A DNA stretch of 33,291 bases from a virus. The notes beneath the pieces are model-generated. The model ran no database searches. It was given only the letters and a program-made list of their open reading frames with translations, and was not told the origin of the DNA. The position numbers and the translations under genes are program-made. The stretch covers positions 1-33,291 of the IMG/VR virus record IMGVR_UViG_3300020183_000274. One strand, 5' to 3'. Below are positions 1-28,114 of the stretch, piece by piece (position 1 is the first letter of the stretch; the number at the start of each line of letters is the position of its first letter).

Positions 1-5
1 CAGAA

Positions 6-1598
6 ATGACTGACAACTTTGATTATTTCAATCAAAAGTATTTTGTCTCACCGGTCACACCAACACCAACAAACACACCAACAATAACCCCAACAAATAC
101 ATCTACTCCCACACCGACAACAACTCCAACAGTAACTCCGACAATATCAGTCACACCATCCAATACTCCCACCCCAAGTGTAACACCATCAATATCAGCA
201 TCCGCAGTTCCACAAGTTAATATAAACTTCAAGAAGATAGCAGACGATTTTGAATCAATGTCAACTTATCACAAACAAATTAATTCTTTTGGTTTAGGTA
301 ATATTGATGGAATAAGTTATTGGACCACAAAAAGGGATCAACAAGATAATCCGCATTTTCAACCACCCATATTTCCATTATTATATGTTGTTCCTTCTCA
401 AGTAACGAATGACCTCAAATATAAGACATGGGATTTTAATACCATAGTAATGGATATAAGTGAAAGAGATCTTAGCAATCAAGTGGATACTCTCTCTGAT
501 ACATTACAAATGTTACAAGATGTTATATCTCAATTTAGATTATCTGTAACACAAGCCGAGGGGCTCTATAACAATTTATATTACCTTGATGATGAAGTAA
601 CATGTGTTCCATTCACAGAAAAAGAGGTGGATCTAACAAATGGTTGGACTGGTCTCATGAAAATCAAAACAATGACACCTCTCAATAGATGTGCAGCAGC
701 ATTTAATACTTGGAGCGGGACACCAATTATTCATGATACAATCAACTTCAAAACTTTCCACGATGATTTTAGAGTTCTATCTGAATATCATAAGCAGATA
801 AATTCGTTTGGATTCGGTCAAGAAGAGGATCTATCGTATTGGACCGAGATGAGAGATAAGGTGGATAACGAACATTATAACTCTCCAATTTTCCCCCTAC
901 TATATGTTATACCTGGTGATGTTCAACAGAAATTCGGATTTATGGAATATTCCTTCACACTCATAGTGATGGATATCATAACAAGAGATTTATCAAATCA
1001 AATTGATGTGTTATCCGACACCAATCAAATGATGGATGATATAATTTCACAGTTCAGATTGTCAGTCACAGATTCTCTTGGCAATTTTAATGCAAAATAT
1101 TATTTACAAAATCCTGTTATCTGTAGTCCGTTCATTGAGCAGTATTCTGATCTCACCGCTGGTTGGACAGCTAATATCATTGTATCTGTTGCTAACTCTC
1201 TTGATAGATGTGCTGCAGCATTTAATTCTTGGTTAACACCAACAGCTACATTAACACCAACAAACACACCTTCATTAACGCCAAGTATAACACCGACAAC
1301 AACAATCACATCCACACCGAGCAATACACCTACCAACACAAATACTCCAACTCCTAGTGTTACAAATACACAAACACCTACTAGCACAAATACTCCAACT
1401 CCTAGTGTTACAAATACACAAACACCTACCAATACAAATACTCCTACTAATACAGGATCATTAACGCCTACTCCAACTATAACACCAACAAACACTAAAA
1501 CTCCCACACCAACTCCATCATCGGGTGTTGTGATAGCGGTTTGGAATACAACTAATGTAAATTGGAATAATGAAACAGGATTATGGAATACAATATAA
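6..1598 (+). CDS. PT-rich virion (tail/adhesin) protein with a duplicated domain
   Basis: Product of 530 residues. Residues 17-65 are a Thr-Pro repeat linker. Residues 71-236 and 245-409 are two copies of one domain: both contain YHKQINSFG, SYW, PIFPLLYV, RDLSNQ, ISQFRLSVT and a final RCAAAFN. Residues 411-515 are a second Thr-Pro linker with an exact 48-nt-period repeat, and a short Trp/Asn-rich tail ends the protein. I do not recognise the duplicated domain. Such linkers in phage structural proteins usually join folded modules on the particle, so a tail or adhesin role is inferred from them and from the following tail genes. The ATG at 6 is not secure: no stop lies upstream within the window, and the frame matches the gene leaving the right end (33156), so this may be the body of a longer protein of about 577 residues. 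Confidence 0.7.
   Translation: MTDNFDYFNQKYFVSPVTPTPTNTPTITPTNTSTPTPTTTPTVTPTISVTPSNTPTPSVTPSISASAVPQVNINFKKIADDFESMSTYHKQINSFGLGNIDGISYWTTKRDQQDNPHFQPPIFPLLYVVPSQVTNDLKYKTWDFNTIVMDISERDLSNQVDTLSDTLQMLQDVISQFRLSVTQAEGLYNNLYYLDDEVTCVPFTEKEVDLTNGWTGLMKIKTMTPLNRCAAAFNTWSGTPIIHDTINFKTFHDDFRVLSEYHKQINSFGFGQEEDLSYWTEMRDKVDNEHYNSPIFPLLYVIPGDVQQKFGFMEYSFTLIVMDIITRDLSNQIDVLSDTNQMMDDIISQFRLSVTDSLGNFNAKYYLQNPVICSPFIEQYSDLTAGWTANIIVSVANSLDRCAAAFNSWLTPTATLTPTNTPSLTPSITPTTTITSTPSNTPTNTNTPTPSVTNTQTPTSTNTPTPSVTNTQTPTNTNTPTNTGSLTPTPTITPTNTKTPTPTPSSGVVIAVWNTTNVNWNNETGLWNTI
1337..1429 (+). repeat. Exact 45-nt direct repeat, period 48 nt, in a Thr-Pro linker
   Basis: Bases 1337-1381 and 1385-1429 are identical, and the 3 bases between break the match. 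The period of 48 nt keeps the frame and gives a 16-residue protein unit containing TNTPTPSVTNTQTPT. Such tandem DNA can gain or lose whole units by slippage without disrupting the gene. Confidence 0.85.
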
Positions 1599-1620
1599 AT
1601 TAAATTAAAAAAAATAATAC

Positions 1621-18573: not shown

Positions 18574-20130
18574 ATGTTAATAATTAAAACAAACCAGCAG
18601 AATACATTGGTGGTTACAGTATCACAAAATGCTGAACTACCAAATCCTGAATGGTTATTTTCTTTTACACACATTTTCACAAAACAAAGGGTAACTTTCA
18701 TATTACCCAATACATCATCGTATCAAAATAGGTATGATGAATTTGTGTTTACAGAAGGTCAAGGTGTAGGTGAGATTGCTTTCCCATATGAGGGTCAGTA
18801 TATCTATACTGTGAGCGAACAGATTGCTCAGAACCCACCGAATTTAGATCCTTCTTTAGCCTATAATGTGGTTGAAAATGGTATTGCTCAAGTCATTGCA
18901 ACTTCAGCAGAGACCACAAATGATTATTACATTGAGTTTGTATCGTCAAATGAGGACAATTCAAATTATCTCTTTGCTCCTGATGAATTGAATCCTCCAT
19001 CACCAACTCCATCAGTTACAGCAACACAAACTCAAACTCCTTTCGTTACACCGACAACCACACCTACGACAACACCAACTCCGAGTGTAACAGCAACCAA
19101 TACGGGAACTCCGACACAAACACCTACCAATACTCAGACAAATACCCCTACGAAAACAGGGACTCCTACGCCTACCCCAAGTGTTACTCCAACAAAGACA
19201 CCAACAGGAACGCCAACTAACACCCCAACTTCTAGTGCCACGCCAACAGTAACACCATCAAATACTCCAACTCAAACAAATACATCAACACCATCAATGA
19301 CACCAACTCAGACCAATACTCCGAGTGTGTCTCCAACTACCACACAAACACCAACCTTGACAAACACAACGACACCAACACCTACCCCGAGTCCAACCCC
19401 ATTCAATCCGAGTTCTCTAAATCCACAAATATGGGTTGATTTCTCTGATACTTCCACAATGACATTTAGAAGTGGAACAACTAATTTGGAAAAAATTGTC
19501 AATAAGGGTTCATACGGAAGTTTAACTGCGTTCACACAAACAACCGTGTCCCTACAACCATTAATTGGTGCAACAACACAATTTTCTGGATCAGGACTTT
19601 CTGCCGTAACAATATCGAACGATTATTTGACATCGATTGTAAATACAACAGGATCTACGAATTGGACAAGAGTTGTCGTTTCTACCAATCTTGGTAATAA
19701 CGCTGCTTTTAAATATGACGATGGAAGTGGTTCAGTTTTCGCAGATTACATGAGACAAACCACTACATCTGTTAGAAAAGCGTTTTTCGGTGGTGGAGCA
19801 TTTTTCAGAATAGATTGTTCTTTATCAAATCGACCAACATCGGGACAAACTTTTATTGAATATACATCAACATCGGGTGGAACACAAATTTCTTATTCTT
19901 CATTCAATGGTAGTGGAACTACTGAATCCATAGTTGCGGGATCAAATTATGGAACTGCAGCACAGAATAACCCACCTTCATCAACATTATATTTATTAAA
20001 TGACCCAACTGATGGCAGTTTATATTCAGGTGAAATCGGTGAAATGTATTTCTTCACGAGAGAACTCACTTCGACAGAAACAACGAATCTATTAAACTAC
20101 TTGAAAACCAAATGGAATTTAAAATATTAA
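18574..20130 (+). CDS. PT-linker virion protein with C-terminal LamG-like domain
   Basis: 518 residues. Residues 1-138 are a beta-rich N-terminal domain ([16 protein letters not shown] region, then [18 protein letters not shown]) common at the start of Bacteroidota phage structural proteins, and they probably dock the protein onto the particle. Residues 140-279 are a very long Thr-Pro repeat linker. Residues 284-518 form a LamG/concanavalin-like domain, opening with [15 protein letters not shown] and closing with [13 protein letters not shown] and [10 protein letters not shown]. The last domain is paralogous to residues 203-456 of the 8893 product. Its position between tube and portal genes suggests decoration of head, neck or tail for glycan binding. 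The linker could be glycosylated; that is speculation. Confidence 0.75.
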
Positions 20131-20444: not shown

Positions 20445-20453
20445 TATATTTAT
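20445..20453 (+). promoter_or_regulatory. TATATTTAT box before the portal gene
   Basis: The 9-nt TATATTTAT is 4 nt upstream of the portal start. The same word occurs at 23087, 27193 and 27314, always in intergenic DNA, and once in a coding region (19988). I see no TTG 18-21 nt upstream here, so a promoter role is uncertain. Confidence 0.3.
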
Positions 20454-23033: not shown

Positions 23034-23086
23034 AAAGAAGTTTTGTTAAATTTTGATTTTTTTCTTGAAACTATCAAGTAATATCT

Positions 23087-23095
23087 TATATTTAT
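23087..23095 (+). promoter_or_regulatory. TATATTTAT box with upstream TTG (promoter candidate for the 23096 RNA)
   Basis: TTG at 23065-23067 is followed by 19 nt and TATATTTA (23087-23094), matching the spacing of Bacteroidota promoters with an A in place of the last G of TAnnTTTG. It would drive the structured segment that starts immediately downstream. Confidence 0.4.
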
Positions 23096-23173
23096 GGATA
23101 TCAGGTTTGACCTGATTCTAATAAGCTATCCATAGAAAAGGCAGGGACTCCTAAAAAAAGTTCCTGTTTTTTT
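23096..23173 (+). ncRNA. Candidate structured small RNA A
   Basis: Non-coding segment of about 78 nt with a clear fold. An outer stem pairs 23093-23100 with 23127-23134 (8 bp). A nested hairpin pairs 23101-23105 with 23111-23115, and an 11-nt unpaired stretch contains TAATAAGC. It ends in an intrinsic terminator (23142-23173). It shares TATATTTAT-N23-TAATAAGCT with the segment at 27193. It could be an independent phage sRNA, or the structured 3' end of the structural transcript. No open reading frame with a plausible start is visible. Confidence 0.4.
23142..23173 (+). terminator. Intrinsic terminator after the structural genes / RNA A
   Basis: An 8-bp stem (23142-23149 with 23159-23166, one G-U pair) and a 9-nt loop are followed directly by seven Ts (23167-23173). 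Confidence 0.8.
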
Positions 23174-23182
23174 ATGCTTTTA

Positions 23183-23214
23183 TTTGGATATACCAACCTA
23201 TACCCCTATCTTTG
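23183..23214 (+). promoter_or_regulatory. Bacteroidota-type promoter P1
   Basis: TTTG (23183-23186), 20 nt, TATCTTTG (23207-23214) is an exact match to the TTTG-N19/20-TAnnTTTG form. Transcription should start near 23221, giving a leader of about 12 nt to the ATG at 23233. The spacer contains TATACCAACCTATAC (23189-23203), repeated with one change at 27299. Confidence 0.8.
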
Positions 23215-23232
23215 TAATCTAAAATCAAAGAT

Positions 23233-23457
23233 ATGTCAAACAAACAAAAATCAAAAGACGAAGTAATCATTTTCCAAAATCAATCACACCTTGTTCAGAA
23301 GTGGTTTCAGGACTGTAATATTTGTCCTACCTTATTTGAGATCGCATTGGCAACAGATGTCATGGTGGATTTCGCAATGTATGGTCCAACCAAAGATGTA
23401 ATAGACAGATTTACAAAGCTTGAGAATTACATTAAATCAAATCGTGAAAAGAAATAA
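23233..23457 (+). CDS. Hypothetical early protein, 74 residues
   Basis: No family recognised. A mostly helical, soluble small protein with segments HLVQKWFQDCNICPTLFEIA and FTKLENYIKSNREKK. It is the first gene of the small early block, directly downstream of promoter P1, so it is probably expressed immediately after infection. The next gene starts 1 nt after its stop, and the two likely share a transcript. Confidence 0.65.
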   Translation: MSNKQKSKDEVIIFQNQSHLVQKWFQDCNICPTLFEIALATDVMVDFAMYGPTKDVIDRFTKLENYIKSNREKK

Positions 23458-23458
23458 T

Positions 23459-23617
23459 ATGAGCAACACAAAACGACTATACGAAGAAATGGAACTCAAT
23501 GTATTTGACATTGATCTTGAGGACGAGGAATATCAATTCCGTCAATGGATAGAAAAAGAATATGAAAAATATTTGGCGGAGAATCCAAATAGTCCTATCT
23601 TAGCTCCTCACAATTAA
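23459..23617 (+). CDS. Hypothetical early protein, 52 residues
   Basis: Very acidic small protein (ELNVFDIDLEDEEYQFRQWI, then EKYLAENP). I start it at the ATG at 23459, 1 nt after the preceding stop, rather than at upstream in-frame codons inside that gene. The C-terminal codons for YLAEN through the stop carry promoter P2 of the following gene. Small acidic early phage proteins often inhibit host enzymes or mimic DNA, but nothing here identifies a target. Confidence 0.55.
   Translation: MSNTKRLYEEMELNVFDIDLEDEEYQFRQWIEKEYEKYLAENPNSPILAPHN
23572..23603 (+). promoter_or_regulatory. Bacteroidota-type promoter P2 (inside the upstream gene)
   Basis: TTTG (23572-23575), 20 nt, TATCTTAG (23596-23603). 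It is embedded in the end of the 23459 gene and precedes the ATG at 23630. The 25 nt from 23596 to 23620 are identical to 24371-24395. Confidence 0.7.
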
Positions 23618-23629
23618 AACTATACAACT

Positions 23630-23839
23630 ATGGAAAAACAAAAAATTATGCGTGTTTTTCAGGATATCAAAATGGATGCCCTTCTGGCAATCAGAGAACA
23701 CAACGAAGGTGATTACTCACAGGAGGAAAAAGATTGGAATACTCAACATTGGAATGGAATAATCATAGGTGCTGAAACGATGATGAAAAAACTTTTTGAT
23801 GAACCAACCAATTATTTTAACTTAGCACTTTATCAATAA
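23630..23839 (+). CDS. Hypothetical early protein, 69 residues
   Basis: No family recognised. Helical and soluble, with KIMRVFQDIKMDALLAIREH and TMMKKLFDEPTNYFNLALYQ. The leader ends ACTATACAACT before the ATG, the same as before the gene at 25239. Its own promoter is P2, and its last codons contain promoter P3. Confidence 0.6.
   Translation: MEKQKIMRVFQDIKMDALLAIREHNEGDYSQEEKDWNTQHWNGIIIGAETMMKKLFDEPTNYFNLALYQ
23795..23825 (+). promoter_or_regulatory. Bacteroidota-type promoter P3 (inside the upstream gene)
   Basis: TTTG (23795-23798), 19 nt, TAACTTAG (23818-23825), upstream of the ATG at 23851. It lies in the last codons of the 23630 gene. The sequence after it (CACTTTA then A-rich) resembles that after P8. 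Confidence 0.65.
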
Positions 23840-23850
23840 AAACAAACAAA

Positions 23851-24033
23851 ATGAAAATTATCATCACAGAAGAACCGAAAACAGCAACAGAAGCTGCGGG
23901 TTTACTAAATCTTATCTCTTCACAAATACTCAATGGTTGCACTCGGGGTTACTACCCACATTGGTATTTGGATATGGATATGGAAGAAAGTATGAAAATA
24001 AATGAAGAAATGAATGAATGGTTACCTGAATAA
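23851..24033 (+). CDS. Hypothetical early protein, 60 residues
   Basis: No family recognised. Starts MKIIITEEPKTATEAAGLLN and ends in an acidic helix (DMDMEESMKINEEMNEWLPE). Soluble, with no membrane segment. Expressed from P3. Confidence 0.6.
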   Translation: MKIIITEEPKTATEAAGLLNLISSQILNGCTRGYYPHWYLDMDMEESMKINEEMNEWLPE

Positions 24034-24037
24034 TCCT

Positions 24038-24045
24038 TATCTTAG
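24038..24045 (+). promoter_or_regulatory. Promoter -7-like box P4
   Basis: TATCTTAG 4 nt after the preceding stop and 19 nt before the ATG at 24065. No TTTG is found 19-21 nt upstream, so this is weaker than its neighbours. Confidence 0.5.
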
Positions 24046-24064
24046 CAATTCAAATAACAACACT

Positions 24065-24364
24065 ATGAGAAAGTTAAACAAAAAACAAATTAAATGGGTT
24101 CAACAAAATGTTAAACCTGGTATGACCATTTTCAAAAATGATGTTCAAGAAATCAGAGTTATTGATATCGCAATGGGGTATTATGTTGTGAATGAGATTA
24201 TTACTTATATTGCTGACGAAGATAACTATAACATGGGTTTAATTACTAAAGAAGAATTAGAAAGTGGAAGAGGAAGGATTGTAAGTCGGGATAGAGGAAT
24301 TTCAATTACGAGCGAAGAATGGAAAAAATGGTTTCCAAATATTTTGGAAATCGAATCTAAATAA
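24065..24364 (+). CDS. Hypothetical early protein, 99 residues
   Basis: No family recognised. Beta-rich with a basic N-terminus (RKLNKKQIKWVQQNVKPG), then VIDIAMGYYVVNEIITYIAD and ISITSEEWKKWFPNILEIE. I prefer the ATG at 24065, downstream of box P4, to an in-frame ATG at 24014 inside the preceding gene. Its last codons carry the TTTG of promoter P5. Confidence 0.6.
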   Translation: MRKLNKKQIKWVQQNVKPGMTIFKNDVQEIRVIDIAMGYYVVNEIITYIADEDNYNMGLITKEELESGRGRIVSRDRGISITSEEWKKWFPNILEIESK

Positions 24365-24378
24365 TTTCCTTATCTTAG
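24343..24378 (+). promoter_or_regulatory. Promoter P5 (long spacer) with duplicated leader
   Basis: TATCTTAG (24371-24378), with the nearest TTTG at 24343-24346 (24-nt spacer, longer than usual). Bases 24371-24395 are an exact copy of 23596-23620. The ATG at 24403 follows. Confidence 0.5.
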
Positions 24379-24402
24379 CTCCTCACAATTAAAACAACAA
24401 CA

Positions 24403-24930
24403 ATGACTACCACCCAAACAACGAACAATTATCAAGAGTTACCGATTTCTGAAGCTTCCAAAAGAAATTTAAGTGTATTAAACCTATTCGGTCACAAATT
24501 AGCAGACGAATTAGGTTTTGAACCTCATGCATCAATTTATAGAAGTAAATCGGTTACTGTGATGAAGGTCAGAGGTAAGGGTCAGTATAAAGAAAAAAAG
24601 TTCAAGGTCCCAACTTTAGACTGGGAAACAGATTGTTATAGATTACAGTTTATTCCTTCAACTACAAATTGTGTTGAACTTTATTGGATTGAGGTTAAAG
24701 ATGGTCAAGAATGTAAGGGAATTGGAACGAAGTTGATAAATACTATTTTAGATATCGCTGATGAATCCGGCATTAGAATAAAAGCTATTCCATGCAATTT
24801 CAAAAATCAAGGGAATGTAGAAGATTTGTATCGTCTTCGGGATTGGTATCGTTCATTTGGTTTCAGACCCTCAGCCATTGAAGGTTGTGTTTTTTATTAT
24901 ACACCGAAAAAAAATATAAAAAAATTTTGA
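24403..24930 (+). CDS. GNAT-family N-acetyltransferase
   Basis: 175 residues. The acetyl-CoA-binding motif is visible at residues 96-123 (IEVKDGQECKGIGTKLINTI), with the Q/R-x-x-G-x-G/A form read as CKGIGTKL. Near the end (145-154) LRDWYRSFGF is the typical GNAT C-terminal helix-strand. Residues 1-80 are less typical and include a basic segment (RGKGQYKEKKFKVP). GNAT enzymes transfer an acetyl group from acetyl-CoA to an amine. Phage copies can modify host or phage proteins, antibiotics or tRNA, and the substrate cannot be read from the sequence. It is driven by P5 in the early block, fitting an early host-modifying role (inference). Confidence 0.75.
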   Translation: MTTTQTTNNYQELPISEASKRNLSVLNLFGHKLADELGFEPHASIYRSKSVTVMKVRGKGQYKEKKFKVPTLDWETDCYRLQFIPSTTNCVELYWIEVKDGQECKGIGTKLINTILDIADESGIRIKAIPCNFKNQGNVEDLYRLRDWYRSFGFRPSAIEGCVFYYTPKKNIKKF

Positions 24931-24956
24931 GGATATTAGATTAAGTATTAACTTTG
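24926..24956 (+). promoter_or_regulatory. Bacteroidota-type promoter P6
   Basis: TTTG (24926-24929, sharing its last bases with the upstream stop TGA), 19 nt, TAACTTTG (24949-24956). Precedes the ATG at 24974. Confidence 0.75.
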
Positions 24957-24973
24957 TGTAAAATTAAGAAACA

Positions 24974-25225
24974 ATGGATATTAAAAATCTTAACGACCTT
25001 GAATGTCTACATTTCGTAGGAGATAAAGTTAATCTCCTTTTTTACACACCATTGGGTGAGACAGAACTACACGCACAGTTCTATCTGAATAACACTTCTG
25101 AAGAGGTTGTTCACGAAGAAATCGTAAGGGAGTTCTATACTGCTCTATCTTGTATTGAGGTTTTTCGTTCTCAAGAATATCAAAATTCTTTTTTTCAATT
25201 CGAAAGTATTTCCTTATCTTTGTAA
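24974..25225 (+). CDS. Hypothetical early protein, 83 residues
   Basis: No family recognised. Alpha/beta and acidic: LNDLECLHFVGDKVNLLFY, then HEEIVREFYTALSCIEVF. Expressed from P6. Its last codons form the -7 box of P7. Confidence 0.6.
   Translation: MDIKNLNDLECLHFVGDKVNLLFYTPLGETELHAQFYLNNTSEEVVHEEIVREFYTALSCIEVFRSQEYQNSFFQFESISLSL
25215..25222 (+). promoter_or_regulatory. Bacteroidota -7 box P7
   Basis: TATCTTTG overlapping the end of the 24974 gene (stop TAA at 25223-25225), 16 nt before the ATG at 25239. The -33 position is a T-run rather than a clear TTG. Confidence 0.6.
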
Positions 25226-25238
25226 AAACTATACAACT

Positions 25239-25430
25239 ATGAAAAAGACAAACAAAAAAACTAACTTTATTATCGTAAGAATCATGGAAGGAACTAAATG
25301 TATTCACGCTCACGAGATTACCAATCTCTATGGTGAGTTGGCTAAATATACAAAGTCATCTTATCCCAATGAAGGAGGTGGTTATACTACCATCGTTGAA
25401 ATCCAAGCATCACAATCAAACCTTGACTAA
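25239..25430 (+). CDS. Hypothetical early protein, 63 residues
   Basis: Basic N-terminus (MKKTNKKTNFIIVRIMEGTK), then alternating strands and YPNEGGGYTTIVEIQ. The ATG at 25239 is chosen because it follows P7 and carries the same ACTATACAACT leader as the gene at 23630. An in-frame upstream start would lie inside the preceding gene and before the promoter. No family recognised. Confidence 0.6.
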   Translation: MKKTNKKTNFIIVRIMEGTKCIHAHEITNLYGELAKYTKSSYPNEGGGYTTIVEIQASQSNLD

Positions 25431-25431
25431 T

Positions 25432-25548
25432 ATGAAACAAAAACTACTACAACAAATCAAAGAAATTAGTTTAACCGACTACTGGTATTTTCTCGGACAA
25501 AACTCGTCAGTAAAAGTTCTCAGACAATATTTGGCAGAGTCGAACTAA
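25432..25548 (+). CDS. Very small early protein, 38 residues
   Basis: Short helical product (MKQKLLQQIKEISLTDYWYF, ending RQYLAESN). It starts 1 nt after the preceding stop. Its last codons, for YLAES, carry the TTTG of promoter P8, in the same way that the YLAEN codons of the 23459 gene carry P2. Real coding status is moderately supported by its tight coupling. Confidence 0.45.
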   Translation: MKQKLLQQIKEISLTDYWYFLGQNSSVKVLRQYLAESN

Positions 25549-25561
25549 CTTCATATCTTAG
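25530..25561 (+). promoter_or_regulatory. Bacteroidota-type promoter P8
   Basis: TTTG (25530-25533), 20 nt, TATCTTAG (25554-25561), before the ATG at 25590. Local sequence ATATTTGGC(A/G)GAG is shared with P2. Confidence 0.7.
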
Positions 25562-25589
25562 CACTTTAATTAATAAAAAAATATACATC

Positions 25590-25865
25590 ATGGACAACAT
25601 AAAAGCAATTTATGTAACTAAAGACAAATCTTGGTTTTCAACGAGAAGATATAACGGATCTTGGCATCCAATAAATATGGATACTACTGATGGTTTGGAT
25701 CACTCAATAATGGTCTACGAAAGTTGGTATCAATTTATTGACATGATGGAAGAAGATGTTGAAAATGCACATGAAGAATTGACTGATCAACAAGTTGAAG
25801 AATATTTCAATATGTTTATTGATCATATGGAAAATTGGGGTTGGGAAGTTAAAATATCAAACTAA
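25590..25865 (+). CDS. Hypothetical acidic early protein, 91 residues
   Basis: No family recognised. It has an N-terminal strand pair (AIYVTKDKSWFSTRRYNGSW) and an acidic helical C-terminal half (FIDMMEEDVENAHEEL, EYFNMFIDHMENWGWEVKIS). It is the last gene of the promoter-rich early block and is followed by an intrinsic terminator. Confidence 0.6.
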   Translation: MDNIKAIYVTKDKSWFSTRRYNGSWHPINMDTTDGLDHSIMVYESWYQFIDMMEEDVENAHEELTDQQVEEYFNMFIDHMENWGWEVKISN

Positions 25866-25871
25866 ATTAAT

Positions 25872-26300
25872 CTATTTCAATCCCCTTTGTGAATAACTTA
25901 GGGGATTTTTTTCACCATTGGGTAACCAAATTGATGCATTTTTTGCTGGTCTAATTTTTTCCTGCAATCCATATTTCAAACAAAAATCTTTGTGAACATT
26001 GTTCGGATCAAATCCCAACTTCTCCATAAACTCATACATCTCCATATAGTCCTGTTTGGTGCAAGCTGTCATCTTAGCCATGCTGCCTGAATTGGTCATA
26101 CCTCTTTTCTTTTTGGGTTTTGGTTCTCTAACTTCAACCTTCCATCGTTGGAAACAAATCTTACATCTTTTCATGAATCCGCCCTTACAATGTTCACACT
26201 TATAGAAATGTTCCAATCCTTTCAACCTTTTACAATCAGCACAGACCCTATTTATTTCCCCATTAGTCGTCTGTAATTCTTTTTTTGATATCTTACTCAT
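25872..26300 (-). CDS. Zinc-finger-like protein (only minus-strand gene)
   Basis: 142 basic residues. Three CxxC pairs lie at Cys20/23, Cys35/38 and Cys46/49, in a frame (CxxCKRLKGLEHFYK ... CKICFQRWK) resembling the zinc ribbon found in phage HNH-type endonucleases and small DNA-binding proteins. A Lys/Arg stretch follows (PKPKKKRG, 61-67), then a helical part (EFMEKLGFDPNNVHKDFCLK). No HNH catalytic His-Asn-His signature is visible, so I read it as a DNA- or RNA-binding zinc protein, perhaps a regulator. It is the only gene on this strand, converging on the early block and diverging from the initiator-like gene at 26390. This arrangement suits a control protein. Confidence 0.65.
   Translation of the reverse strand: MSKISKKELQTTNGEINRVCADCKRLKGLEHFYKCEHCKGGFMKRCKICFQRWKVEVREPKPKKKRGMTNSGSMAKMTACTKQDYMEMYEFMEKLGFDPNNVHKDFCLKYGLQEKIRPAKNASIWLPNGEKNPLSYSQRGLK
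25879..25912 (+). terminator. Intrinsic terminator of the early block
   Basis: An 8-bp stem (AATCCCCT 25879-25886 with AGGGGATT 25900-25907) with a 13-nt loop and a T-run reaching 25912. It lies inside the 3' end of the convergent minus-strand gene. Confidence 0.75.
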
Positions 26301-26315
26301 ACTAAAAAAAATAAT

Positions 26316-26333
26316 GTCTTAAATCGTCTTAAA
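26316..26333 (+). promoter_or_regulatory. Possible operator: two GTCTTAAA repeats
   Basis: GTCTTAAA at 26316-26323 and 26326-26333, a spacing of 10 bp (one helical turn), in the divergent region between the minus-strand zinc protein and the initiator-like gene. This arrangement would suit cooperative binding by a regulator. Confidence 0.4.
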
Positions 26334-26341
26334 ATAAATAG

Positions 26342-26373
26342 TTGGAAAATAAAAATTATTTTCCTTATACTTA
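26342..26373 (+). promoter_or_regulatory. Promoter candidate P9
   Basis: TTG (26342-26344), 21 nt, TATACTTA (26366-26373), before the ATG at 26390. It is a weaker match than P1, P2, P6 and P8. Confidence 0.4.
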
Positions 26374-26389
26374 TCAAAAACAATTTAAC

Positions 26390-26791
26390 ATGAAAAAATT
26401 TAAGAATGATGACCAAGAGCTTATTCGTAGCATTCTTGGGAAGGACAAATTCCTTATGTTGAACACGAAATTATTAATGAACTTAGGTCCAAATGCTGCG
26501 TGCATGATTACATATCTTTTGGACAAATTAGATTTCCTGTTGATGACAAAACAAATCGCATCAGCAGATGAGCCCTTCCAAGTTTATAGAAGAGATTTCA
26601 AAAGATCTCTTTCACTAAGCCCTTATCAGCAAAAAGTAATTGAGAAAGATTTATACAATTTCGGTATTCTTCTCGTTGAAGAAAAAAGATATCAAGGTGA
26701 GACATGGAATGATTACCAAATCAACTTAGAAGCTTTAGTTGAAGTTATAGATTCAACTCATTATTCGTTGGAACTACCTGAAAAAATATGA
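26390..26791 (+). CDS. Replication-initiator-like winged-helix protein
   Basis: 133 residues from the ATG at 26390; an upstream in-frame TTG at 26342 lies before the promoter and is less likely. It has a helical N-terminus with LMLNTKLLMNLGPNAACMIT and LLDKLDFLL, then a winged-helix pattern: FQVYRRDFKRSLSLSPYQQK, VIEKDLYNFGILLVEEKR and a wing ending in YQINLEALVEV. This layout (recognition helix starting at LSPYQQ, then LEELG-type helix and YxINxExL wing) is that of phage replication initiation or organiser proteins. It is followed within 40 nt by a large AT-rich dyad, which fits an origin or autoregulatory site. It is the best replication protein candidate in the window. Confidence 0.55.
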   Translation: MKKFKNDDQELIRSILGKDKFLMLNTKLLMNLGPNAACMITYLLDKLDFLLMTKQIASADEPFQVYRRDFKRSLSLSPYQQKVIEKDLYNFGILLVEEKRYQGETWNDYQINLEALVEVIDSTHYSLELPEKI

Positions 26792-26865
26792 AGCAGTGGG
26801 TTAAGTTTTTTGAGGCTGGGTTCTATATCTATTCTATATTATATTTTAATATTAAAAGAATATAG
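26788..26865 (+). CDS. Possible 25-residue hydrophobic peptide
   Basis: The ATG overlaps the initiator-like stop (ATGA). The peptide starts MKQWVKFFEAGFYIYSILYF and is hydrophobic and basic-ended. Its second half is encoded by the left arm and centre of the 26829 dyad, so the coding appearance may be accidental. Confidence 0.2.
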   Translation: MKQWVKFFEAGFYIYSILYFNIKRI

Positions 26866-26870
26866 AATAG
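26829..26870 (+). repeat. 42-nt AT-rich dyad (origin or operator candidate)
   Basis: Perfect 12-nt arms (CTATTCTATATT 26829-26840 and its complement 26859-26870) enclose a perfect 14-nt palindrome (TTTTAATATTAAAA, 26844-26857). Only ATA and G break the symmetry. No long T-run follows and the stem has almost no GC, so an intrinsic terminator is unlikely. It sits right after the initiator-like gene. Confidence 0.7.
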
Positions 26871-26915
26871 TTTTAGATAGGGTTAAAAAATTAGAGGGGG
26901 TGGTGAAAGAAACTT

Positions 26916-27188
26916 ATGTCCAAGATTGATGATTTACTTTTGACACAATTTGATGTTCCGGTATCGGCATACTTTTCTCTAACTGAAAAGCAGAAAGAAG
27001 AGATTACAAGAATCATCATAACCCAATATTTGAAAACCTTATCAAAAGAACCAGAACTAGCACCACACTACACTTATCATTTAGATTATCAATTATCCTA
27101 TGCGATAAAAAGAGAAGATTTTGAAAAAGCAGATATGATAAAAAGGGTAATAGAAAAAATTGAAGATCTGTTTGGAAAATTTGAATGA
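26916..27188 (+). CDS. Small protein with UVR-like C-terminal motif
   Basis: 90 residues. The C-terminal LSYAIKREDFEKADMIKRVI (about residues 64-83) resembles the UVR motif (L-x2-A-x4-D-F/Y-E-x-A-x2-I/L-R-D-x-I) seen in UvrB, UvrC, McsA and ClpC, where it makes a helical-hairpin protein contact. The N-terminal part is helical (SLTEKQKEEITRIIITQYLK). A role in replication, repair or protein contact is possible but not shown. It stands alone between the dyad and the cassette at 27193, 50 nt after the end of the 26788 peptide. Confidence 0.6.
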   Translation: MSKIDDLLLTQFDVPVSAYFSLTEKQKEEITRIIITQYLKTLSKEPELAPHYTYHLDYQLSYAIKREDFEKADMIKRVIEKIEDLFGKFE

Positions 27189-27192
27189 TGAT

Positions 27193-27201
27193 TATATTTA
27201 T
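27193..27201 (+). promoter_or_regulatory. TATATTTAT box with upstream TTTG (promoter candidate for the 27202 RNA)
   Basis: TTTG (27171-27174), 18 nt, TATATTTA (27193-27200). Mirrors the box at 23087 and likewise precedes a terminator-ended non-coding segment. Confidence 0.4.
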
Positions 27202-27283
27202 CAATGTGGGATTTTAGTCATTATTAATAAGCTCATCTTGAATTTTTTTTACCCACAACCCAGTATTCTTACTGGGTTTTTTT
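27202..27283 (+). ncRNA. Candidate structured small RNA B
   Basis: About 82 nt of non-coding DNA between a TATATTTAT box and an intrinsic terminator. TAATAAGCT (27225-27233) lies exactly 23 nt after the box, as in candidate A. Pairings are weaker than in A: 27201-27204 with 27238-27241, and 27203-27206 with 27219-27222, which cannot all form together. The shared geometry is the main argument. It could instead be the 3' untranslated end of the 26916 gene. Confidence 0.35.
27257..27283 (+). terminator. Intrinsic terminator after RNA B
   Basis: A perfect 9-bp stem (AACCCAGTA 27257-27265 with TACTGGGTT 27270-27278), a 4-nt TTCT loop, then Ts to 27283. Confidence 0.85.
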
Positions 27284-27298
27284 ATTTAATATACAACT

Positions 27299-27322
27299 TA
27301 TACCTACCTATACTATATTTAT
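27299..27322 (+). promoter_or_regulatory. TATACCTACCTATAC element plus TATATTTAT box before the winged-helix gene
   Basis: TATACCTACCTATAC (27299-27313) differs by one base from 23189-23203 in promoter P1, and begins 15 nt after the terminator T-run in both places. TATATTTAT (27314-27322) follows directly, 11 nt before the ATG at 27334. Likely promoter/operator of the 27334-28970 operon. No clear TTG is found at the usual distance. Confidence 0.45.
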
Positions 27323-27333
27323 AAAAAAAAGAC

Positions 27334-27597
27334 ATGGAAAAATTAACAAACCCAAGACACAAAGAAATCTACAGAATTTTGATGGAGGATATAAAGAAGA
27401 ATCCATCAGGATATTCAACACTCACAAACAACGAGATTTATGAATTGATGGATTTCAAGGTATCCCCATTCTCAATCAGAGATCATATCATAAAACTAGC
27501 CAACAAAAGAGTTATCCAAAAAGTTAATAATACTTGGATTGATGACAACTATCACCCGAGAGTAATCTATATGGGAACAAATAATGTTGTTGGATGA
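27334..27597 (+). CDS. Winged-helix DNA-binding protein
   Basis: 87 residues. A helical start (NPRHKEIYRILMEDIKKNPS) is followed by a helix-turn-helix-like TLTNNEIYELMDFKVSPFSI, then RDHIIKLANKRVIQKVNNTW, where the second half has the helix-strand-wing look of small winged-helix regulators. It probably binds DNA and may regulate its own operon, since a duplicated TATACC(A/T)ACCTATAC element lies just upstream. It overlaps the sigma-like gene by 14 nt, so the two are coupled. Confidence 0.6.
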   Translation: MEKLTNPRHKEIYRILMEDIKKNPSGYSTLTNNEIYELMDFKVSPFSIRDHIIKLANKRVIQKVNNTWIDDNYHPRVIYMGTNNVVG

Positions 27598-28114
27598 AAA
27601 CATAATTGATAGAATCTTGAATGACCTTTGGATTACTTCCAACTATGAAGAATTAAAAAAGATATGCAGATTTGTGTCAAAGAGTTATGATGTTGATGAT
27701 CTGCTTCATACTTGTGTGGAACAATTTTTAGTCAACAAAAAGGTAGGAGAACTTGACAACGCACAAAAACTATATTTCTTTACAAAGATTGTTAAGAACC
27801 AATTTCATTCACAAACATCCAAATATTATTACCAATTCAAAAAATCACAATCAGAAAATTTATTTGATATTGAAATAGTAGATGAACAATATGAAGAAGA
27901 TCCATTCAACATGAATTGGGTTCGAAAACAACTTGATGATATGAAACAAACCAAAGATTGGTATTACGGAAGATTGTTTGAATTATACATTGAAGAAGGA
28001 TGTTCAATAACAAATGTTTCCAAGAGAACAACAATACCAATCAACTCAGTATCAAGGGACATAAATAAAGTTAGAAAAGAATTAAACAAGAAAAGAAATG
28101 GGTTGCGGATGTAA
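27584..28114 (+). CDS. RNA polymerase sigma factor-like protein (ECF-like)
   Basis: 176 residues with a two-domain layout. Residues 23-80 resemble sigma region 2: YDVDDLLHTCVEQFLVN stands where sigma factors have D-x-x-D-L-x-Q, then LYFFTKIVKNQFHSQTSKYY. A linker (90-110) is acidic. Residues 126-168 resemble region 4: LFELYIEEGCSITNVSKRTT then PINSVSRDINKVRKEL, a helix-turn-helix that would read the -35 element. The N-terminal half is short and divergent, so it could bind RNA polymerase weakly or work as a regulator. Sigma-like proteins are frequent in Bacteroidota phages. It may direct the variant TATATTTAT promoters, which is speculation. It overlaps its neighbours on both sides. Confidence 0.6.
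   Translation: MLLDENIIDRILNDLWITSNYEELKKICRFVSKSYDVDDLLHTCVEQFLVNKKVGELDNAQKLYFFTKIVKNQFHSQTSKYYYQFKKSQSENLFDIEIVDEQYEEDPFNMNWVRKQLDDMKQTKDWYYGRLFELYIEEGCSITNVSKRTTIPINSVSRDINKVRKELNKKRNGLRM

Follow-up and report, generated by a model that had tools for sequence, protein, structure and literature searches.

Promoter-driven RNA cassettes at operon boundaries of uncultured phages: candidate same-strand antisense RNAs against the downstream gene

Described antisense RNAs and the boundary cassettes

The C4 antisense RNA is known from phages P1 and P7 (RF01695; Citron and Schuster, 1990, as reported in PMC2864571, PMC8198154, and PMC12197685). C4 and its target share an operon region (c4, icd, ant), and the complementary stretches of C4 are thought to lie in RNA loops that pair around the ribosome-binding site, thereby blocking translation (PMC8198154, PMC12197685). 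The OOP RNA of phage lambda and the sar RNA of phage P22, described as antisense RNAs (asRNAs), are short and repress an adjacent gene through antisense pairing (PMC12197685). In Bacteroides, where no Hfq or ProQ is known, intergenic small RNAs (sRNAs) such as GibS have their own promoter and terminator, are AT-rich, and carry an extended single-stranded pairing region (PMC7366714). Here, we analyze two cassettes found in a virus DNA of 33,291 nucleotides (IMG/VR record IMGVR_UViG_3300020183_000274, positions 1 to 33,291; this whole stretch is called the window) and in related contigs. In its conserved order, a cassette is made up of a first promoter (P1), an RNA of ~70-150 nt, an intrinsic terminator, and the promoter of the next gene (P2). 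Across the family of the first cassette, the start region of the next gene is matched by complementary sequence in the RNA loop; for the window's own two copies, this pairing is not significant.

Like C4, the cassette RNAs would be phage antisense RNAs located near their target and pairing through a loop around the translation start. Whereas C4 and its target are encoded in one operon, the cassette RNA and its candidate target are split by a terminator and a second promoter. In each cassette, a single closing stem encloses a large loop, the RNA has a promoter and a terminator to itself, and the target is served by a different promoter. Moreover, the C4 target is an antirepressor gene, whereas the candidate target of cassette 1 is mostly a small acidic protein with no assigned function, and the viruses carrying the cassettes are without sign of lysogeny. 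With the RF01695 model, neither the window (E<=5) nor two relatives gave a match. Because there is no Rfam match and the RNA has its own promoter and terminator, the cassette RNAs are, judged from sequence, not members of C4, though they would act alike.

The cassette RNAs would resemble OOP and sar in being short phage RNAs antisense to a neighbouring gene. Cis-encoded antisense RNAs are read from the opposite strand, hence their complementarity is automatic. The cassette RNA, in contrast, comes from the same strand as its target, so that complementarity must be maintained by covariation. With GibS, the cassettes share a Bacteroidota promoter and a terminator of their own, AT-richness, and an extended single-stranded pairing region; however, GibS is host-encoded and acts in trans on targets elsewhere, with no neighbour-targeting. 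In the literature library searched, no description of such a promoter-driven antisense RNA at an operon boundary was found.

Our analysis suggests that these RNAs form a new family of phage antisense RNAs, which would silence the downstream neighbour. If this is true, RNA and target co-evolve in an antisense family that spans a set of uncultured virus contigs, and the same-strand neighbour silencing of C4 in P1/P7 also exists in a separate, promoter-driven boundary form. The cassettes would then also be naturally occurring RNA-target pairs on which sRNA action without Hfq can be studied.

Complementarity between the RNA loop and the next gene's start

Related contigs were reached via the sigma-like protein and via a 166-aa protein encoded 5' of cassette 1. 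Searching for the P1 element yielded 46 stretches, mostly true cassettes; 26 cassette-1 and 5 cassette-2 RNAs were tabulated which, with four new viruses reached via the downstream gene, make a total of 35 cassettes (relatives are given below by L numbers). Both boundaries are kept in relatives at ~60% protein identity. Cassette 1 comes after the gene that closes the structural operon, be it the 166-aa gene or another, and cassette 2 stands ahead of winged-helix and sigma-like genes. In L055/L056, the second promoter of cassette 2 is kept and no RNA was found at that place. In L025 (861-930), a ACCAAGATA element follows the 166-aa gene without a TATATTTA box, and a terminator-like hairpin comes directly next.

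Nearly all cassette RNAs fold into a closing stem with an open loop of about 20-60 nt, usually large and U-rich; U-rich stretches and CCCAUUU are common to many loops. The stems differ in sequence between clades yet stay complementary. Thus AGAGGGGAAG pairs with CTTCCCCTCT in L069 and TGAGGTGAG with CTCACCTCA in L030, while the cassette-2 stems are AGATGCT/AGCATCT in L017, L018, and L020 and GGTATTGGT/ACCAATACT in L047. Because MAFFT misaligns the variable stems, covariation was tested by strand swapping rather than by column counts: the pairing of a stem strand with its own partner scores -16.4, vs. -10.0 when strands are swapped between clades (z -8.8). An Rfam scan of the window and two relatives (4227 families) gave no match at the gathering score.

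The downstream genes often start with AUGGGA, which suggested a pairing between loop and start. Within genomes, duplex energies of whole RNA bodies, in which the GC-rich stem is dominant, showed no signal (Fisher p 0.54). With loop-only energies, RNAs pair more strongly with their own targets than with swapped ones. Taking one representative per clade, own vs. swapped start regions gave z -5.2 and p<=3e-4 for cassette 1 (16 clades) and z -6.0 and p<=1e-4 for both cassettes pooled (23 clades), the clades being set by hand from RNA similarity and the energies ignoring accessibility. Loop boundaries were set by hand for the window copies, L048, L037, and the new set. Compared with every 45-nt segment of the same locus, the start regions of 20 cassette-1 clades stand out with a Fisher p of 4e-5. 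The complementarity is also visible in individual pairs, since both sides change together from UUAUCUUU with AAAGAUAA in L074 to UUGUCUUU with AAAGACAA in L084. Further RNA-mRNA pairs are UCCCAUUUUU with AAAAAUGGGA (L113) and UCCCAUUGU with ACAAUGGGA (L123); L111 shows 12 contiguous pairs, and L103 and L037 have longer interrupted duplexes. In the four new viruses, reached via the target protein and not via the RNA, the own start region ranks 4, 3, 4, and 1 of 35. This complementarity was no part of the original prediction.

In L036, L039, L116, and L118, the RNA cassette and the usual target gene are separated by a 35-aa open reading frame (ORF; MERTKN...), and the loop has complementarity to the start of this ORF as well as to that of the target gene.

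The excess of pairing is confined to the neighbourhood of the start codon. Indeed, it appears in segments centred at -10, 0, and +10 (z -3.6, -4.7, and -3.4), and no excess was seen from -70 to -20 or from +20 to +140. This bears on the reading in which the cassettes are ordinary operon boundaries, with a terminator and tandem promoters, a P1 transcript that has no role, and an accidental or compositional complementarity. U-rich loops and A-rich leaders do pair easily, and the pairing is not significant for the window itself or for cassette 2. However, composition would lift all offsets, and the confinement to about +/-10 nt strongly disfavours such an effect; the clade-level permutation test and the continued complementarity of stems of unrelated sequence also speak for more than a boundary. 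We therefore regard this reading as quite unlikely.

Several observations weigh against an antisense function. Part of the data used for testing had already served to form the hypothesis, and the fully new set consists of four viruses, three of which are closely related in the target gene; among these four alone, the swap test was not significant (p 0.17 with energies and 0.08 with the start-codon complement). A previous within-genome ranking, with the other gene starts as reference, gave only p=0.02. Group pairing is not significant for cassette 2 (p about 0.38; Fisher p 0.60). In the window, GUUUGAC of RNA 1 pairs with GUCAAAC at the neighbour's start codon (7 bp), which is not significant alone: against 45-nt segments of this genome, p is 0.79 for RNA 1 and 0.78 for RNA 2. 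RNA 1 even pairs better with other gene starts of the window (e.g., 26916, 22533) than with that of its neighbour. This last result would suit a trans-acting small RNA with host or other phage targets, for which complementarity to the neighbour is incidental, but the family-wide excess for the neighbour makes such an RNA improbable in our view.

By position, promoters, and terminator, the window's two RNAs are nevertheless members of the series, as far as sequence can tell, and an antisense action of theirs would follow by extrapolation from the cassette family. Cassette 2 has the predicted anatomy, with no significant pairing.

The best-supported model, which we hold to be rather probable, is that a same-strand antisense RNA blocks translation of the downstream neighbour. 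The computed support comprises the anatomy, its conservation, the complementarity of the stems, and the neighbour-specific start-codon complementarity of the family; from these we infer RNA production, action in trans, repression, and timing. Each cassette would be a small-RNA gene in its own right, placed where two operons meet. Its Bacteroidota-type P1 would yield a short RNA ending at the intrinsic terminator, and a differently marked P2, directly behind that terminator, would drive the operon that follows. Within the cassette-1 family, the variable but always complementary stem would usually display a large unpaired U-rich loop, antisense to the start codon and surroundings of the following operon's first gene on the same-strand transcript. 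The P1 RNA would then bind the P2-driven mRNA in trans by base pairing and block ribosome entry at the start codon, so that P1 output would lower translation of the operon transcribed from P2. The broader proposal, that a dedicated same-strand antisense RNA at each boundary is a swappable translational off-switch in phages of Bacteroidota, a group in whose studied members no Hfq or ProQ is known, is put forward tentatively, at slightly less than even chances.

The element could also act in cis, as an insulator. In read-through transcripts, the loop would sequester the start codon and only mRNA started at P2 would be translated. At all boundaries examined, the element indeed precedes its target on one and the same strand, and a neighbour-specific pairing centred on the start codon is equally expected from intramolecular pairing. 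However, such an insulator has no need of a dedicated promoter and P1 is strongly conserved in cassette 1, which favours a separate RNA; moreover, a stem-enclosed loop with its own terminator resembles a discrete RNA. We consider the cis version unlikely. A riboswitch or attenuator reading was dropped, as P2 lies past the terminator.

Constant words and conserved architecture

The original prediction gave a fixed order of words at both boundaries, namely the box TATATTTAT, 23 nt, the 9-mer TAATAAGCT, a terminator, 15 nt, and the 15-mer TATACC(A/T)ACCTATAC. In the window, order and positions hold without mismatch (Table 1). TATATTTAT-N23-TAATAAGCT is found with 0 mismatches at 23087-23127 and 27193-27233 and at no third site in the whole window (chance expectation 0.22 for a search with <=3 mismatches), and TAATAAGCT occurs twice, each time 23 nt past TATATTTAT. 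The 15-mer matches, again with 0 mismatches, at its two tabulated sites only, and both terminators end 15 nt short of it. When both regions were shuffled, a common 9-mer at an identical offset from the box arose in 0.25% of trials (p=0.0025) and at any offset in 16% (p=0.16).

These words do not generalize. The 9-mer is in 0 of the 29 other tabulated cassettes, including those of 60%-identity relatives that keep both boundaries, and the gap between T-run and 15-mer is 15, 16, 18, or 19 nt in relatives. The search for TATATTTAT-N23-TAATAAGCT that had been proposed for related genomes, carried out in viral_contigs, returned near-identical copies and unrelated chance matches only. A single recognition site of strict geometry, for which the shared offset of the 9-mer in the window would argue, thus has no support outside near-identical genomes and is most improbable. 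On this comparison, three constants (9-mer, N23 spacing, and 15-nt gap) are peculiarities of the window genome and the architecture is the conserved part. The selected architecture first proposed is thus upheld, since the order promoter, RNA, terminator, promoter stands in relatives, but its constants fall away; likewise, two small RNAs with a regulated promoter behind each, as first suggested, gain comparative support from relatives at ~60% protein identity without the constants being kept.

Cassette 1 of the window is homologous to the L018 and L048 cassettes by position and terminator, and its P2 arrangement is repeated in L018, L037, L043, and L048. The body of RNA 1 folds at -10.5 kcal/mol (z -2.2).

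Table 1. Positions of the cassette features and of adjoining genes in the window.
Feature	Position	Strand	Details
Cassette 1, putative P1	23065-23095	+	TTG 23065-23067, 19-nt spacer, -7 box TATATTTAT 23087-23095
Predicted RNA 1	23095-23173	+	~79 nt, from box end to T-run end
RNA 1 closing stem	23095-23100 with 23127-23132		TGGATA/TATCCA; inner hairpin TCAGG-TTTGA-CCTGA; terminator next
9-mer, copy 1	23119-23127	+	TAATAAGCT; absent from the 29 other tabulated cassettes
RNA 1 intrinsic terminator	23141-23173	+	GCAGGGACTCCTAAAAAAAGTTCCTG-T7; homologues in L018, L048, L099
Cassette 1, putative P2	23184-23214	+	TTG 23184-23186; 15-mer TATACCAACCTATAC 23189-23203 in spacer
Cassette 1, P2 -7 box	23207-23214		TATCTTTG; TTG-N20-TATCTTTG
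First gene after cassette 1	23233-23457	+	74 aa, no assigned function; candidate RNA 1 target
Cassette 2, putative P1	27172-27201	+	TTG 27172-27174, 18-nt spacer, box TATATTTAT 27193-27201
Predicted RNA 2	27201-27283	+	~83 nt; large loop, terminator
RNA 2 closing stem	27205-27210 with 27252-27257		TGTGGG/CCCACA
9-mer, copy 2	27225-27233	+	TAATAAGCT; not conserved
RNA 2 intrinsic terminator	27258-27283	+	
Cassette 2, putative P2	27299-27322	+	15-mer TATACCTACCTATAC 27299-27313 abuts box TATATTTAT 27314-27322
First gene after cassette 2	27334-27597	+	87-aa winged-helix protein
Sigma-factor-like protein gene	27584-28114	+	176 aa; same operon as winged-helix gene

Promoters, candidate regulators, and neighbouring genes

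Bacteroidota promoters carry TAnnTTTG at -7 and TTTG at -33 (PMC7366714). The P1 of cassette 1 has the form of a Bacteroidota sigma-ABfr promoter (TAnnTTTG at -7, TTG/TTTG near -33), TTG-N19/20-TATATTTA, and is strongly conserved as TTGATTACCAAGATACTAT-TATATTTA. TTG lies 19 or 20 nt ahead of the box in 25/26 cassette-1 copies; the box of L048 is TAGATTTG, a perfect TAnnTTTG, and the other boxes are TATATTTA-like. For cassette 2, P1 is less certain, because a -33 element at matching spacing was not found in the copies of L017, L018, L020, and L047. A further TATATTTAT stands at 20445-20453, directly 5' of the portal gene (start 20458) and without a cassette.

The 15-mer sits in the P2 spacer and, in relatives, is found again between TTGAC and the -7 box. 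Its motif is inverted in L047-L052 and L055/L056, as expected of a putative protein-binding, operator-like site. In viral_contigs, TAYACCNNCCTAYACTATAYTTAT occurs in relatives only (9 stretches). P1 and P2 are probably regulated differently, since P1 has ACCAAGATA and P2 the TATACC motif. The winged-helix protein encoded at 27334, with weak similarity to the LexA DNA-binding domain (Pfam PF01726, E=0.0022, below the cut-off), is a possible binder of the 15-mer. The motif is present in 11/20 records with the winged-helix gene vs. 3/16 without it, a link that is suggestive only. The sigma-like protein matches the sigma factor PHROG 1740 (E=0.0073) and no Pfam family.

A near-DNA search of a phage collection gave no match to the window, nor did the sigma-like and winged-helix proteins match in that collection. 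Among 84,980 bacterial and archaeal species genomes, neither a relative of the sigma-like protein nor a copy of the P1 element was found. The closest terminase relatives belong to Bacteroides and Parabacteroides phages (32-34% identity), and the uncultured phage probably infects Bacteroidota.

In the operon after cassette 1, a promoter-like box TATCTTAGC is repeated ahead of small genes (23594-23620, 24370-24395, and near 24036 and 25553), two of the boxes being followed by TCCTCACAATTAAAAC. On the minus strand, 25872-26300 encodes a small endonuclease-VII-like zinc protein, and a similar gene often adjoins the sigma-like gene in relatives. Finally, several tail-region proteins carry long Pro/Thr repeats (TPTPTxTPT; window positions 1-1600 and 18574-20130).

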